DNA from: Methyloglobulus morosus KoM1
GTDB lineage: Bacteria > Pseudomonadota > Gammaproteobacteria > Methylococcales > Methylomonadaceae
Length of the DNA: 64,000 nucleotides
Direction of reading: 5' to 3'
Assembly (NCBI RefSeq): GCF_000496735.2
Contig: NZ_AYLO01000040.1
Location: 1 to 64,000, forward strand
Position 1 is the first letter of the stretch, and the number at the start of each line of letters is the position of its first letter. This document shows, one piece after another, positions 3,237-9,745 of the stretch. The position numbers and the translations under genes were made by a program. The notes below the pieces were generated by a model. That model made no database searches and was not told the origin of the DNA. It saw only the letters and a list, made by a program, of their open reading frames with translations.

Positions 3237-3461
3237 ATGATGATAACAAAACTGACAGCATTAATGCTGTTGCTGATGATGGCGGCAACACTCCCTGCCT
3301 GTTCCACGGTACAACCCTGGGAGCGCGGCAATCTTGCAAAACCACAAATGGCTTTAGACCCACATCCGCTACAAAGCAGCTTAAGGGCGCATAACTATGG
3401 CAGCCGCGAGGCGGCGGCAGGCGGCAATGCGGGACAAGGAGGTGGTTGTGGCTGTTATTAA
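3237..3461 (+). CDS. DUF4266 lipoprotein
   Basis: A 74-residue lipoprotein. The lipobox LPAC places the lipidated Cys at residue 22. The short mature chain has the DUF4266 features WERG, LAKP-M and the glycine/cysteine-rich C-terminus ending GGGCGCY. It may begin at the second ATG (3240). DUF4266 proteins characteristically neighbour DUF3570 outer-membrane proteins, and here its last 14 bp overlap the next gene, whose ribosome binding site lies inside this coding sequence, so the two are translationally coupled. The role is unknown; the cysteine pair at the tail could bind a metal or anchor a thiol, which is inference. Confidence 0.85.
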   Translation: MMITKLTALMLLLMMAATLPACSTVQPWERGNLAKPQMALDPHPLQSSLRAHNYGSREAAAGGNAGQGGGCGCY

Positions 3462-6144
3462 TAAAAACGATAAGGTTTCATCATTAAAAGCGTTAACCGC
3501 GACAGCCTTGTCGTTGCCTGGGATATTGTCGCCAATTGCCCATGCCGCCGACGGTGACGAGGTGGATTTTCAATACAGCCATTACCAGGAAGGGAAAAGG
3601 GATATATCGGTTTCTGAAGTCGATGGATCATCTTCTGGGATTTCTGGTACTAAAAGTTTCAACCCCATCGAAGTGGATAGTCTGCATGGCAGCGCACGGG
3701 TCAGTTTGACGGATCGGGTGAAGTTTGCCTTTAATTACCTGCAAGATACCTGGGGCGGTGCAACGCCTATGGCAACCGTGCCTTACTTGGCATCGGGAAA
3801 TCGTGCCATCAAAAACACAGCCGATGCGTTAACAGGTGCCTCGCCTTATGCGATCGCAGGGGCTGGTTTAAAAAATTTGTTTTTGGGTTCACGCTCAAAT
3901 CGGCTGTTTCAAACCGACCGGGTTGACCCCAACACCGGCCTGCCTGTGTTCAAAAATGACACCAGGCTGACCCATGTGCTGGCGACAGCTTCGCCGGAAA
4001 CCCGTAAGCAAGGGGACTTCAAGCTGAGTTATGACTGGGACAATGCCGCCGTCAGTGTCGGCGGCGGTATTTCCATAGAAGATGACTACGATTCCCGTTT
4101 TGGCAATATCGGCGGACGTTTTGATTTTAACCAAAAACAAACGACCTTAAATGTTGATTTAAGTTATACCAATAGCTACACCCATGCCACGCTAGACCAT
4201 GATGACTATACGAAGAAAAGTCTTCTGCCATCGCGACAATTAACTGAAATCGTAGGTGAAAGTGGAACAACCATTGAAAAGACAATCATTCATGGCACTC
4301 GCCAGGACTGGGCGACTCATTTTGGCCTGACTCAGGTTGTCAACAAGGATGTCTTGCTGGGCGCGGATTTTAGCTATACCCGCAGCACTGGCTACCAAAG
4401 CAACCCTTATAAAGGCGTGGCGATAGCCTTTGTCGATAACAACCCGGATTCCAATACCTACGGCGATTTGCCGCCAGGCGTATTTCCCACTCAAATCGCG
4501 ATGTTTACCGAGCAGCGGCCAGACGTACGCAACCAATATGCTGTGGGTGGGCGTTATGTGCAATATATTAATGCACTCGATGCCGCATTGCATTTTGACT
4601 ACCGCTTTTCGGCGGATGATTGGGGTATTCAGGCGCATACGTTTGAAGGGGATTGGGTGCAGCCCTTGGGCAGCGGCTGGACGGTTACGCCACGTATCCG
4701 TTATTACTCGCAAGATGCGGCTGATTTTTATGCGCCTTTCCTTATTTCGCAACAGCGTTACACATTAGATAGGTTGGTTGACCCGAACAAACTACCCGCC
4801 CATTATTCCAGCGACCAACGCTTGTCCGGCTTTGGCACCCTAAGTGGCGGGTTGACGGTAACGAAACAGTTTGCCAAAGGGCTTGCCCTGGAAACCGGCT
4901 TTGAGTATTACACCCATCAAGGTGGTTTAAAGCTGGGCGGCGGCGGTGAGTCCGCCTATGCCGATTTTGATTATTGGGTAGCCAATGCCGCGTTAAAGGT
5001 CAACCTGAGTGCCTTGGGCAATAGTGGAGCCGGTCATGCCAGTCACGACGGTCATGCGGGGCATCAGCACGGCGCACACGAACCCGCTGGCGTTATGTTT
5101 GCCCATACGCTACCGAAAGCGGGCGACTTTATGGTCGGCTATCGTTACATGTGGAATAGCCAGGGCGGTGACATGCTCAATGGCACCAGTCCGGTGAGTG
5201 ATCAAGCCGTTGTCGACAGGGGATGTACTGAGACCGATACGTTAGGCTGCTTTTTAACGCCGGAGTCCATGTCGATGAGTATGCACATGCTGGATTTGAT
5301 GTACGCGCCTACGGATTGGTTGACCTTGATGTTGATGCCGCAATTTGTGGATATGCAAATGGGTATGCGGGGGCTGGATGGCGCCCAGAGTATTGATATC
5401 ATACCGAACAATTTAGGGCATCATATAACTCACCATATACAAAATCCCCATGAAACGGGCGGCATCGGTGATTTGGGGATGTATGCCCTGGTTAAACTTT
5501 TTGATAACGGGTTGCACCATGTCCATGCGACCGCTGGCTTAAGCGCACCCACAGGCGATGTCGACCTGCAAATCCGCAGGGCTCATGCTAACGATGGTGG
5601 CTATCATGATTACGGTATGCAACTCGGCAGCGGCACCTGGGATTTCAAGCCCAGCCTGACCTACACCGGACAGGTGGATAAGTTCTCTTGGGGCGCACAA
5701 GCCAATGGTATTGTGCGGATGGAAGGCAAAAACAAGTCCGGCTATCGCTTGGGCGATATGTTCCAGGGTATGGCCTGGGGCGGCTATAACCTAACCAACT
5801 GGTTGACGGCGACAGTACGCGGTGTCTATACCGTGCAAGGTTCGATCAAGGGCCAATATAACGGCTCGTCAGTAGGCCAATTTTTTAATCCCAATAACCC
5901 AAAAGAAGAAACTGGTTTTATTAGAGTAAATTCCCAACTTAGATTCGGCCCACAAGACTACCCCAGCAATTATGGCGGTCGGTTTTGGGATGTCGGCTTT
6001 GGCTTAAGCGCTGTTGTGCCATCTGGCGATTTGGCCGGCAACCGTTTCAGTGTGGAATGGCTGCAACCCGTTTATACCGATTTCAACGGCTACCAACTGG
6101 ATCGTGATGGTGCGTTGTCAGCAACCTGGGGTGTGGCTTTCTAA
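3448..6144 (+). CDS. DUF3570 outer-membrane protein with His/Met-rich C-terminal barrel half
   Basis: An 898-residue exported protein starting at GTG 3448, five bases after aaggagg. The signal peptide ends AHA near residue 33. Residues ~36-520 match DUF3570 in style (beta-strand-rich, outer-membrane). Two stretches resemble the ApbE flavinylation consensus D-x-x-S/T-G-A-T/S: DTWGGAT (100-106, with Gly at position four) and DALTGAS (126-132). A linker at 530-544 is His-rich. Residues ~550-898 form a second transporter-like beta domain with a Met-rich stretch (606-640, ten or more Met), HHITHH (658-663) and further His. DUF3570 proteins I know of are roughly half this length, so this appears to be a fusion with a normally separate outer-membrane protein. 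Start overlap with the DUF4266 gene and an apbE 2.7 kb downstream suggest a redox/metal role at the cell surface; that is inference. Confidence 0.8.
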   Translation: MAVINKNDKVSSLKALTATALSLPGILSPIAHAADGDEVDFQYSHYQEGKRDISVSEVDGSSSGISGTKSFNPIEVDSLHGSARVSLTDRVKFAFNYLQDTWGGATPMATVPYLASGNRAIKNTADALTGASPYAIAGAGLKNLFLGSRSNRLFQTDRVDPNTGLPVFKNDTRLTHVLATASPETRKQGDFKLSYDWDNAAVSVGGGISIEDDYDSRFGNIGGRFDFNQKQTTLNVDLSYTNSYTHATLDHDDYTKKSLLPSRQLTEIVGESGTTIEKTIIHGTRQDWATHFGLTQVVNKDVLLGADFSYTRSTGYQSNPYKGVAIAFVDNNPDSNTYGDLPPGVFPTQIAMFTEQRPDVRNQYAVGGRYVQYINALDAALHFDYRFSADDWGIQAHTFEGDWVQPLGSGWTVTPRIRYYSQDAADFYAPFLISQQRYTLDRLVDPNKLPAHYSSDQRLSGFGTLSGGLTVTKQFAKGLALETGFEYYTHQGGLKLGGGGESAYADFDYWVANAALKVNLSALGNSGAGHASHDGHAGHQHGAHEPAGVMFAHTLPKAGDFMVGYRYMWNSQGGDMLNGTSPVSDQAVVDRGCTETDTLGCFLTPESMSMSMHMLDLMYAPTDWLTLMLMPQFVDMQMGMRGLDGAQSIDIIPNNLGHHITHHIQNPHETGGIGDLGMYALVKLFDNGLHHVHATAGLSAPTGDVDLQIRRAHANDGGYHDYGMQLGSGTWDFKPSLTYTGQVDKFSWGAQANGIVRMEGKNKSGYRLGDMFQGMAWGGYNLTNWLTATVRGVYTVQGSIKGQYNGSSVGQFFNPNNPKEETGFIRVNSQLRFGPQDYPSNYGGRFWDVGFGLSAVVPSGDLAGNRFSVEWLQPVYTDFNGYQLDRDGALSATWGVAF

Positions 6145-6193: not shown

Positions 6194-6598
6194 ATGAACA
6201 GCATATTTCCAACTTACCGTTTCGCAAGCGTGCTTGGTCTGTTGCTCGCGTTGATAGGCGTTAGTTTAACAGCGTACGCGCAGGGGGCAGACCCAGTGCA
6301 GCAATTAGTAAAAGCCAAAGGGGTGCAAAAAGCCTTGCCATTTTCTTCGCTGTTTCAGGGGCGCGGGGACGGTGTGACGACCTGCCCGGTCACTGGCGAA
6401 AAGATCACGAACAAAAAATTCAAGGCCGATATTTTAGGCCGTACGGTCTTGTTTTGTTGTCACGGCTGCCTGAAAGCGGCCAAGCAAACCCCTGGGAAAT
6501 TTATCAAGGCGACAGTGGCAGAACAGCAAAGCGCCGTTAAGTCTTTCCTTGCACGGGCAACGCAGGCAGCCGATGAAGCAGAGTTTTGTAATGAGTGA
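6194..6598 (+). CDS. Secreted YHS/TRASH-like metal-binding protein
   Basis: A 134-residue exported protein. The signal peptide runs to about residue 29 (AYA). The core carries CPVTGEKI (Cys64) and FCCHGCL (Cys88, Cys89, Cys92), a YHS/TRASH-like treble-clef arrangement used by metal-handling proteins. The C-terminal third is charged and probably helical. A tgagg ribosome binding site precedes the ATG, 49 bp after the DUF3570 stop, so it is probably co-transcribed. Metal identity cannot be read from sequence; copper is plausible given the Met/His-rich neighbour. Confidence 0.75.
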   Translation: MNSIFPTYRFASVLGLLLALIGVSLTAYAQGADPVQQLVKAKGVQKALPFSSLFQGRGDGVTTCPVTGEKITNKKFKADILGRTVLFCCHGCLKAAKQTPGKFIKATVAEQQSAVKSFLARATQAADEAEFCNE

Positions 6599-6703: not shown

Positions 6704-6766
6704 ATTCTAAAAACAACGCATAAGCTGCATGGCCTATGCACTTATAAATCAGAGGGGATAGTTAAA

Positions 6767-7612
6767 ATGTACCACGCAACAAAATTACCTATAGTCATCA
6801 AAACTATAGTGTTATTAACGGGTTTGCTTGCTGCAACAGAAGCTATGGCTGCTACGCCCTTATTTGATAGTAATTGCGCCACTGGTTGCCACGGTGATGG
6901 TAATACTGGAACCAATGTTGAGGGTGTCATTACTCCTCCCGTGCAGGATCGCTCACTTACTGGCATTAGAAATTCCATTATAACTGAGCCTTTGCCTGTG
7001 CCGGAACACTTTGCTACAAGGTTAATTTATGATTTTGGGGGGTATACAGACCAATTCTTTGTTGACATTGTTGCTGAACTTAACCCGCCTTCAGGTTGCA
7101 TACCTCCGCAGGAATTGGTCAATGGCATTTGCACGATACCGACAACACCAAGTTGTACCGCACCCCTAGTTTTAGTCAATGGCATTTGCGCCACCCCACC
7201 ACCACCAGAGTGTGATGACAGCGCCAATACGGCACTTTGTGTCAACCAACTGCACCAATTTGGCAGCTTGGGCAGCGCGGAAACGGCTGCTGACATCTAT
7301 AAGGCCATCTGCGCTAAACCGGCAGTGGCTATCCGTGCGACCATATCAGGGTTGACTGCGGACACTATGGTGAGTGTCCAGGTATCCAAAGGCGGAGTTT
7401 CTACGCCCGTCATCGTGGATGCCACCCCTGGTGACGGTATTGTCAGCGGCAGGCCGGCCCAATTAGCCAAAGGCCCTGGCGTTTATAAGGTAAAGATCAA
7501 TAAATATAACGCGAATGTGCCTGGCATCGTACAGTACGATGCCGCAATAAGCTGCCTGGATAAGAGAAGTAGGCGGGTAGGTGCCAATGTTGTCATCATG
7601 AGGAACCAGTAG
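6767..7612 (+). CDS. Secreted protein with CX3CH heme-like motif and beta-sandwich domain
   Basis: 281 residues with a gagggga ribosome binding site. The signal peptide ends near residue 29. Residues 31-106 look like a small mono-heme cytochrome c, but the motif is C37-A-T-G-C41-H42, one residue longer than CXXCH, and no Met follows within the domain to act as sixth ligand. Residues 111-148 are a Cys/Pro linker with two repeats of the pattern C-x-x-P-x-x-LVNGIC. Residues 163-265 match the domain of the secreted protein at 1929. Thus it looks like an electron-transfer or heme-binding head tethered to the domain found alone upstream. The heme could be covalently held with altered geometry, or the motif may be degenerate; both remain open. 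The upstream AT-rich leader and the repeat at 6656 suggest its own promoter. Confidence 0.7.
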   Translation: MYHATKLPIVIKTIVLLTGLLAATEAMAATPLFDSNCATGCHGDGNTGTNVEGVITPPVQDRSLTGIRNSIITEPLPVPEHFATRLIYDFGGYTDQFFVDIVAELNPPSGCIPPQELVNGICTIPTTPSCTAPLVLVNGICATPPPPECDDSANTALCVNQLHQFGSLGSAETAADIYKAICAKPAVAIRATISGLTADTMVSVQVSKGGVSTPVIVDATPGDGIVSGRPAQLAKGPGVYKVKINKYNANVPGIVQYDAAISCLDKRSRRVGANVVIMRNQ

Positions 7613-8824: not shown

Positions 8825-9745
8825 ATGCAACAAAACAATCTCAAGTACTTTCGCACTGAGTTCAGGGCAATGGGAACACCGTGTGAAATACAATTATTTG
8901 CCCCGACCCAAACAAAAGCGAATAACGCCTTTCTGGCAGTTATCGCAGATGTAGAACGCTTAGAAGCACGGTATTCGCGCTATAAGCCCGATAGTTTTTT
9001 ATCTGCAATCAATCGGGCGGCGGCTATCGGCGGGACAATTAATGTGGATGACGAAACCGCCAGTCTCTTGGATTATGCGGTCACCTGTCATGAACAAAGC
9101 GATGGCCTGTTTGACATTACATCCGGGATTTTGCGACATGCCTGGAAGTTCGATAAAGGGGGGCTGCCAGAACAATCCCTCGTTGATGAATTGCGGGATA
9201 AGGTCGGTTGGCATAAGGTTTCCTGGAAACGACCTGTACTGGCTTTTTCCGTGCCGGGTATGGAAATTGATTTCGGCGGCGTGGTTAAGGAATATGCAGT
9301 CGATCGTGCCGCTTCTTTATGTTACGGCTTGGGCATAAGGCGTGGCGTTATCAACCTGGGTGGCGACATTAAGGTGATCGGTCCCCGTGATGATGGTAGC
9401 CCCTGGCAGGTAGGTATACGCCACCCGCGCAGCAAGGACGCGTTGCTGGATACCGTGCAATTGTACGAAGGGGCTTTAGCCAGCAGTGGGGATTATGAGC
9501 GTTGCATCATGGTCGACGGCGTACGTTACGGTCATGTCCTTAACCCTAAAACGGGGTGGCCGGTGCGGCATCTTGCGGCGGTTAGTGTGGTTGCCGATTT
9601 TTGTGTGGTGGCTGGCAGCGCATCGACGATTGCTATGCTCAAGGAAGATCGAGGGGTCGAGTGGTTACAGGATTTGGGATTGCCCCATCTTTGGGTGGAT
9701 GTTCGTGGCGAGAAAGGCGGGTTTTGGATCAAAAAACAACTATAA
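8825..9745 (+). CDS. apbE: FAD:protein FMN transferase
   Basis: A 306-residue ApbE-family enzyme, which uses FAD and Mg2+ to attach FMN to Thr/Ser of target proteins. The family landmarks are present: AMGTPCEIQLF at the start of the domain, DITSGILRHAW, GGVVKEYAVDRA, and INLGGDIKVIG. Most ApbE proteins are periplasmic lipoproteins, but this one has no signal peptide and no upstream in-frame extension that could supply one, so it should act in the cytoplasm on precursors. It sits downstream of the DUF3570 protein, which carries flavinylation-like motifs and is its most likely local substrate. No NqrC or RnfG gene is present in the window. Confidence 0.92.
   Translation: MQQNNLKYFRTEFRAMGTPCEIQLFAPTQTKANNAFLAVIADVERLEARYSRYKPDSFLSAINRAAAIGGTINVDDETASLLDYAVTCHEQSDGLFDITSGILRHAWKFDKGGLPEQSLVDELRDKVGWHKVSWKRPVLAFSVPGMEIDFGGVVKEYAVDRAASLCYGLGIRRGVINLGGDIKVIGPRDDGSPWQVGIRHPRSKDALLDTVQLYEGALASSGDYERCIMVDGVRYGHVLNPKTGWPVRHLAAVSVVADFCVVAGSASTIAMLKEDRGVEWLQDLGLPHLWVDVRGEKGGFWIKKQL

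Follow-up and report, generated by a model that had tools for sequence, protein, structure and literature searches.

The DNA analysed here, referred to as the window, is a whole stretch of 64,000 nucleotides from Methyloglobulus morosus KoM1 (contig NZ_AYLO01000040.1). It carries a gene for a DUF3570 protein together with a DUF4266 gene and apbE, arranged as follows:

3237..3461, + strand: DUF4266 lipoprotein of 74 aa that has the lipobox LPAC and ends in GGGCGCY (PF14086, E=1.4e-22)
3448..6144, + strand: DUF3570 fusion protein of 898 aa with two predicted outer-membrane barrels, GTG start at 3448
3550..5004, + strand: barrel 1 (DUF3570), residues 35-519, 16 predicted strands (AlphaFold model)
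3745..3765, + strand: flavinylation site 1, DTWGGAT, residues 100-106, where strand 3 ends; acceptor Thr106 (codon 3763-3765)
3823..3843, + strand: candidate flavinylation site 2, DALTGAS, residues 126-132, in a loop insertion; acceptor Ser132 (codon 3841-3843)
3979..3993, + strand: LATAS, residues 178-182, before PETR; degenerate counterpart of the canonical second site SGAS-I-x-E-x-R
5005..5127, + strand: His-rich linker between the barrels, residues 520-560
5128..6141, + strand: barrel 2, 12 predicted strands, Met-rich, COG4313-channel-like (AlphaFold model)
6194..6598, + strand: exported, Cys-containing YHS-like small protein between DUF3570 and apbE (sub-threshold Pfam match)
8825..9745, + strand: ApbE of a DUF3570-linked clade (PF02424)

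A first-pass annotation of the window had described two flavinylation-like motifs in a DUF3570 protein near apbE. Translation from the GTG at 3448 indeed places DTWGGAT at residues 100-106 and DALTGAS at 126-132. A Pfam search of the window protein matched residues 14-510 to PF12094 (DUF3570, E=1.9e-118), and ApbE (PF02424, E=5.3e-73) is encoded on the same strand ~2.7 kb downstream, in keeping with the annotation. DUF4266 lies directly upstream, its 3' end overlapping the start of DUF3570; at window 3436-3448 its GGGCGC codons hold AAGGAGGT, a ribosome-binding-like sequence shortly before the DUF3570 GTG. The hydrophobic stretch of the DUF3570 signal peptide (window residues 16-25, LTxAALxLPG) shows more conservation than is usual in signal peptides, and may have a role beyond export. 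Further upstream, two exported proteins (645-1631 and 1929-2357) match no Pfam family above cut-off; their homologues are found near fused DUF3570 clusters in several methanotrophs.

Flavinylation of DUF3570 is an already established idea, not a new one. Two conserved [S/T]GA[S/T] motifs were described in 228 ApbE-associated DUF3570 proteins (Meheust et al. 2021, PMC8238504). Co-expression of Chlorobium luteolum DUF3570 with its cognate ApbE led to its flavinylation, which was abolished only when both acceptor Ser residues were changed to Ala (PMC8238504). The protein made in E. coli was recovered mostly in the pellet and purified under denaturing conditions, yet it was flavinylated, and the partners reported for DUF3570 clusters are DUF4266 with its CxC tail, thioredoxin and DsbD (PMC8238504). 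The annotation's premise that ApbE attaches FMN to DUF3570 is thus borne out by experimental precedent in C. luteolum; judging from its sequence, the window protein would be modified likewise. The window system resembles those systems in its Pfam family, in site 1 and in its ApbE and DUF4266 partners, and many of its relatives share the thioredoxin. It differs from them in the fused second barrel, the His-rich linker, a second site in a loop insertion, the lack of an adjacent thioredoxin or DsbD gene, and an ApbE that has neither a signal peptide nor the catalytic Asp. Such a signal-less, Asp-less ApbE was not found stated in the main text of PMC8238504. The new elements here are the fusion, the apparently relocated second site and the unusual ApbE.

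We gathered DUF3570 proteins from 81 related genomes, fetched their loci and added named genomes. Alignment shows that site 1 of the window protein is homologous to the canonical, family-wide DUF3570 site. The acceptor is S or T in 157/157 aligned proteins having the site-1 column, so that the first motif passes the conservation check proposed in the annotation. Among the 89 fused proteins D, G and A of site 1 are invariant and the acceptor is T in 88 and S in 1. Position 4 is S in 66 of them, G in 21 and A in 2; GGAT at site 1 is therefore a normal variant. A literature search found no report testing a Gly substitution at position 4 of the flavinylation motif. In the window DUF3570, two matches to D-x-x-[STG]-GA-[ST] in one protein were obtained in 0 of 2000 shuffles (mean 0.02), and plain [ST]GA[ST], observed once, is not rare (mean 0.18 in 2000 shuffles). 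Conservation is a better argument against chance than shuffling, and it is on family-wide conservation that we reject a chance motif.

The second motif fared differently. Single-barrel DUF3570 proteins carry SGAS-I-x-E-x-R at the canonical second site, whereas most fused ones have xAS-P-E-T-R, with the Gly lost; [ST]GA[ST] occupies this position in 0/89 fused proteins, while AS-x-E-x-R is kept in 82/89. The window protein likewise has LATAS-PETR there, with no [S/T]GA[S/T], and has TGAS instead in the upstream loop insertion, which the alignment places between site 1 and the canonical second site. We examined DALTGAS as a homologue of the canonical second site and rejected it, the invariant Arg anchoring that site at LATAS-PETR. 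DUF3570 is a broad family in which many members vary at this position, and the departure seen in the window marks a variant rather than exclusion from the family. GA[ST] is present in the loop insertion of 78/89 fused homologues, and [ST]GA[ST] in 45/89. Conservation of the second motif is thus confined to the fused subfamily, and its position is not that of the canonical second site. These alignments suggest that in the fused subfamily the second site has shifted to the loop insertion.

A different reading is that only Thr106 is flavinylated and that DALTGAS, lying in a variable loop, fits the motif by chance. Most single-barrel homologues indeed carry no DALTGAS-type motif here, and the loop varies in length and is modelled with low confidence (pLDDT ~55). 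Yet the fused homologues hold GA[S/T] in the loop at the frequency given above despite that length variation, and a 7-residue motif within a surface loop can serve as an ApbE substrate, at lower yield (PMC12052999). We consider modification of Thr106 alone unlikely, though a serious contender.

We modelled the window fusion protein with AlphaFold from 108 natural sequences. The model (pLDDT 85.4, pTM 0.81) displays two barrels, the first of 16 and the second of 12 strands, joined by the His-rich linker. Barrel 1 matches known outer-membrane barrels over ~residues 34-520 (VIA-align); comparison of DUF3570 with solved structures by sequence gave nothing significant. A single-barrel homologue (L142) is modelled as the same 16-strand barrel (pLDDT 89.5), with Ser81 after strand 3 and Ser101 before strand 4. 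The outer-membrane location suggested by the annotation is thus backed by two confident barrel models. Strands were counted with the N-terminus taken as periplasmic. Loops on the acceptor side have medians of 2-29 residues and reach 88, and those on the opposite side have medians of 2-6 and at most 7 residues. In outer-membrane barrels the side with long, variable loops is as a rule extracellular. Since the strand 3-4 loop is on that side, the acceptors are predicted to be extracellular and exposed on the cell surface.

The linker contains at least 4 His in 89/89 fused homologues (median 7). Met content is 5.5% in barrel 2 and 0.8% in barrel 1. Barrel 2 gave no Pfam match up to E=5; its distant tblastn relatives are annotated 'transporter'. 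Structurally it resembles the COG4313 outer-membrane channel of Pseudomonas putida F1 (4rl8), likewise a 12-strand barrel (Z=23.1, rmsd 2.8, 253 residues), but it is only 15% identical to that channel, is fused behind a DUF3570 barrel and is Met-rich. Fused and single DUF3570 proteins largely split into two groups on the tree, the exceptions being for the most part ORFs truncated by a contig end or a frame break. At one locus (L034, 7839-10653, - strand) the DUF3570 barrel and the second barrel are two adjacent ORFs, which may be an unfused pair or may result from a frame break.

Partner genes recur across the loci. A C-terminal CxC is found in 96/97 DUF4266 homologues adjoining DUF3570, making DUF4266 a candidate thiol partner. 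A TlpA-like thioredoxin gene lies upstream in 44/76 fused and 38/42 single DUF3570 loci; in the window no thioredoxin or DsbD gene adjoins DUF3570. apbE lies <=300 bp downstream in 54/133 DUF3570 loci.

The number of DUF3570 genes is expanded in the genus. Three Methyloglobulus congeners have 15, 13 and 9 DUF3570 matches. Most of these copies are fused, and they are often arranged in tandem together with DUF4266 genes of their own. Tandem arrays of fused genes are found at L032 (G001:C92), L033 (G001:C80), L034/L035 (G007:C18) and L036 (G006:C165); many of these genes have their own DUF4266 and no additional ApbE. The close relative with 15 matches has a single ApbE of the DUF3570-linked type, apart from the arrays. 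At L253 (5089-8158, G001:C69) a DUF3570-type apbE, away from its arrays, adjoins a gene for a small exported protein (6729-7148) resembling window 6194-6598. As in the window, a spermidine-synthase-like MFS gene also lies next to this congener apbE.

The window ApbE starts MQQNNLKYFRTEFRAMGTPCE and has no hydrophobic leader. Signal peptides were judged by a hydropathy and lipobox heuristic, not by SignalP, and a few control ORFs in a wrong neighbouring frame were left out. By this heuristic no DUF3570-linked ApbE of the set has a lipobox. These proteins start directly at the domain, with ~ten residues preceding the AMG[ST]PC segment, and a Cys close to their N-terminus is near-invariant; most of the other ApbEs of the same genomes begin with a hydrophobic leader, which usually includes a lipobox. 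A mis-called apbE start is an unlikely explanation, as many homologues abut the DUF3570 stop codon, leaving no room for a leader.

Scores obtained with the window ApbE as query fall into two groups, >=286 bits (plus three contig-edge fragments) and <=126 bits. Over the 81 genomes the high-scoring clade and DUF3570 are both present in 47 and both absent in 30. The discordant 4 comprise three with DUF3570 only (one incomplete genome and two fragmentary matches) and one with an ApbE fragment only (Fisher p ~1e-17, not corrected for shared ancestry). Two Hymenobacter (Bacteroidota) plasmid loci (L257, L258) differ from this clade: the ApbE linked to DUF3570 there carries both a signal peptide and the Asp, which rules out that DUF3570 is always paired with a signal-less ApbE. 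The signal-less type holds for the sampled Proteobacteria and Myxococcota. The Hymenobacter plasmid DUF3570 reads YSSAS in place of SGAS at site 1; at L257 the ApbE frame is broken, and at L258 the annotation divides DUF3570 between two frames.

The Hymenobacter enzymes bear on the alternative that an ordinary lipoprotein ApbE flavinylates Thr106 and Ser132 in the periplasm, while the signal-less ApbE acts on a different protein in the cytosol. A lipoprotein ApbE with a lipobox is present in the genome (G000:C21), and in Hymenobacter the DUF3570-linked ApbE is itself exported. It is, however, the signal-less clade that tracks DUF3570 across the 81 genomes and is often encoded by the next gene downstream, whereas the lipoprotein type is found whether or not a genome has DUF3570. 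Periplasmic flavinylation by a lipoprotein ApbE hence seems to us improbable.

The clade is further set apart by its active site. The position of the catalytic, Mg-binding Asp is Gly in 78/79 DUF3570-linked ApbEs, in contrast to Asp in 24/24 control ApbEs. In the window ApbE it is Gly264 (codon 9614-9616), and the Ser-His-Asp triad is incomplete, with Ser and His kept; in the alignment to 1vrm, TADALST stands against VAGSAST. In all 79 clade members the Gly that follows a conserved Lys in the controls is replaced by Glu (Glu156 in the window). In Listeria FmnB the Asp coordinates both Mg ions, and replacing Mg ligands by Ala left little or no activity (PMC8906456); the corresponding residue of V. 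cholerae ApbE is Asp285 (PMC12052999). The window ApbE resembles V. cholerae ApbE and L. monocytogenes FmnB in its PF02424 domain and in the triad Ser and His. It differs from them in having no export signal, Gly at the equivalent of Asp285/Asp301, the invariant Glu after the conserved Lys and the near-invariant N-terminal Cys. By analogy with FmnB, where the Asp is a Mg ligand, the Asp-less clade might be weakly active or catalyze another reaction.

It could be asked whether GA[S/T]-P is kept for barrel structure, by kinking strand 3 where it ends, in a subfamily that is no longer flavinylated because its ApbE has lost the catalytic Asp. The near-universal Gly at that position would fit such a history, as would the loss of the second, loop motif in several DUF3570 paralogues. 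Against it, the triad Ser and His are strictly conserved, as is the ApbE domain at large, the genomic linkage of DUF3570 to ApbE is retained, and Glu156, invariant in the clade, is a possible replacement for the lost Mg ligand, though this is a guess. We regard loss of flavinylation as very improbable.

We favor the following reading, which we consider likely: a dedicated, signal-less ApbE flavinylates Thr106, and probably Ser132, of the outer-membrane DUF3570 before export, and the surface flavins pass on electrons derived from thiols. The ApbE would move FMN from FAD to these residues. As the DUF3570-linked ApbE has no export signal, transfer would most likely occur in the cytosol, on the unfolded DUF3570 precursor; flavinylation thus probably precedes export, the compartment being judged from the enzyme's sequence. 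The flavinylated precursor would then pass through Sec and into the outer membrane, placing its flavins on the strand 3-4 loop, predicted to face outward. The flavinylation of a pellet-recovered DUF3570 in E. coli (PMC8238504) is compatible with modification of an unfolded chain. SecYEG is reported to open to ~22 Å (PMC5963308), a pore compatible with export of a flavinylated chain.

We infer the electron route as follows. Electrons would enter from a periplasmic thiol chain, through a TlpA-like thioredoxin where present and then the CxC tail of DUF4266. They would leave via the flavins, possibly reducing a metal handled by the His/Met-rich second barrel; the sole hint of a metal substrate is the abundance of His and Met in the second half. 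MtrAB-type porin-cytochrome conduits, which also place redox centres at an outer-membrane barrel, offer a possible functional analogy. It is an analogy only, for MtrAB conduits use haems, whereas the DUF3570 system would use flavins and has no cytochrome partner shown. In this scheme DUF3570 as an ApbE substrate rests on experiment elsewhere, and conservation, co-occurrence, the ApbE features and the barrel models on computation. More tentatively, and short of an even chance in our estimate, proteobacterial DUF3570 proteins in general may be flavinylated in the cytosol by the Asp-less ApbE clade and exported loaded with FMN, their paired surface flavins forming a haem-free electron conduit that has multiplied in methanotrophs.

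Its compartment, the type of enzyme and the side of the membrane go beyond what was known of DUF3570 flavinylation. That a signal-less, Asp-less ApbE tracks DUF3570 across genomes raises the question of whether a covalently flavinylated chain can be exported via Sec and fold as a barrel. If the acceptors are extracellular, DUF3570 would be a cell-surface flavin carrier, which would bear on extracellular electron transfer or metal reduction in methanotrophs.
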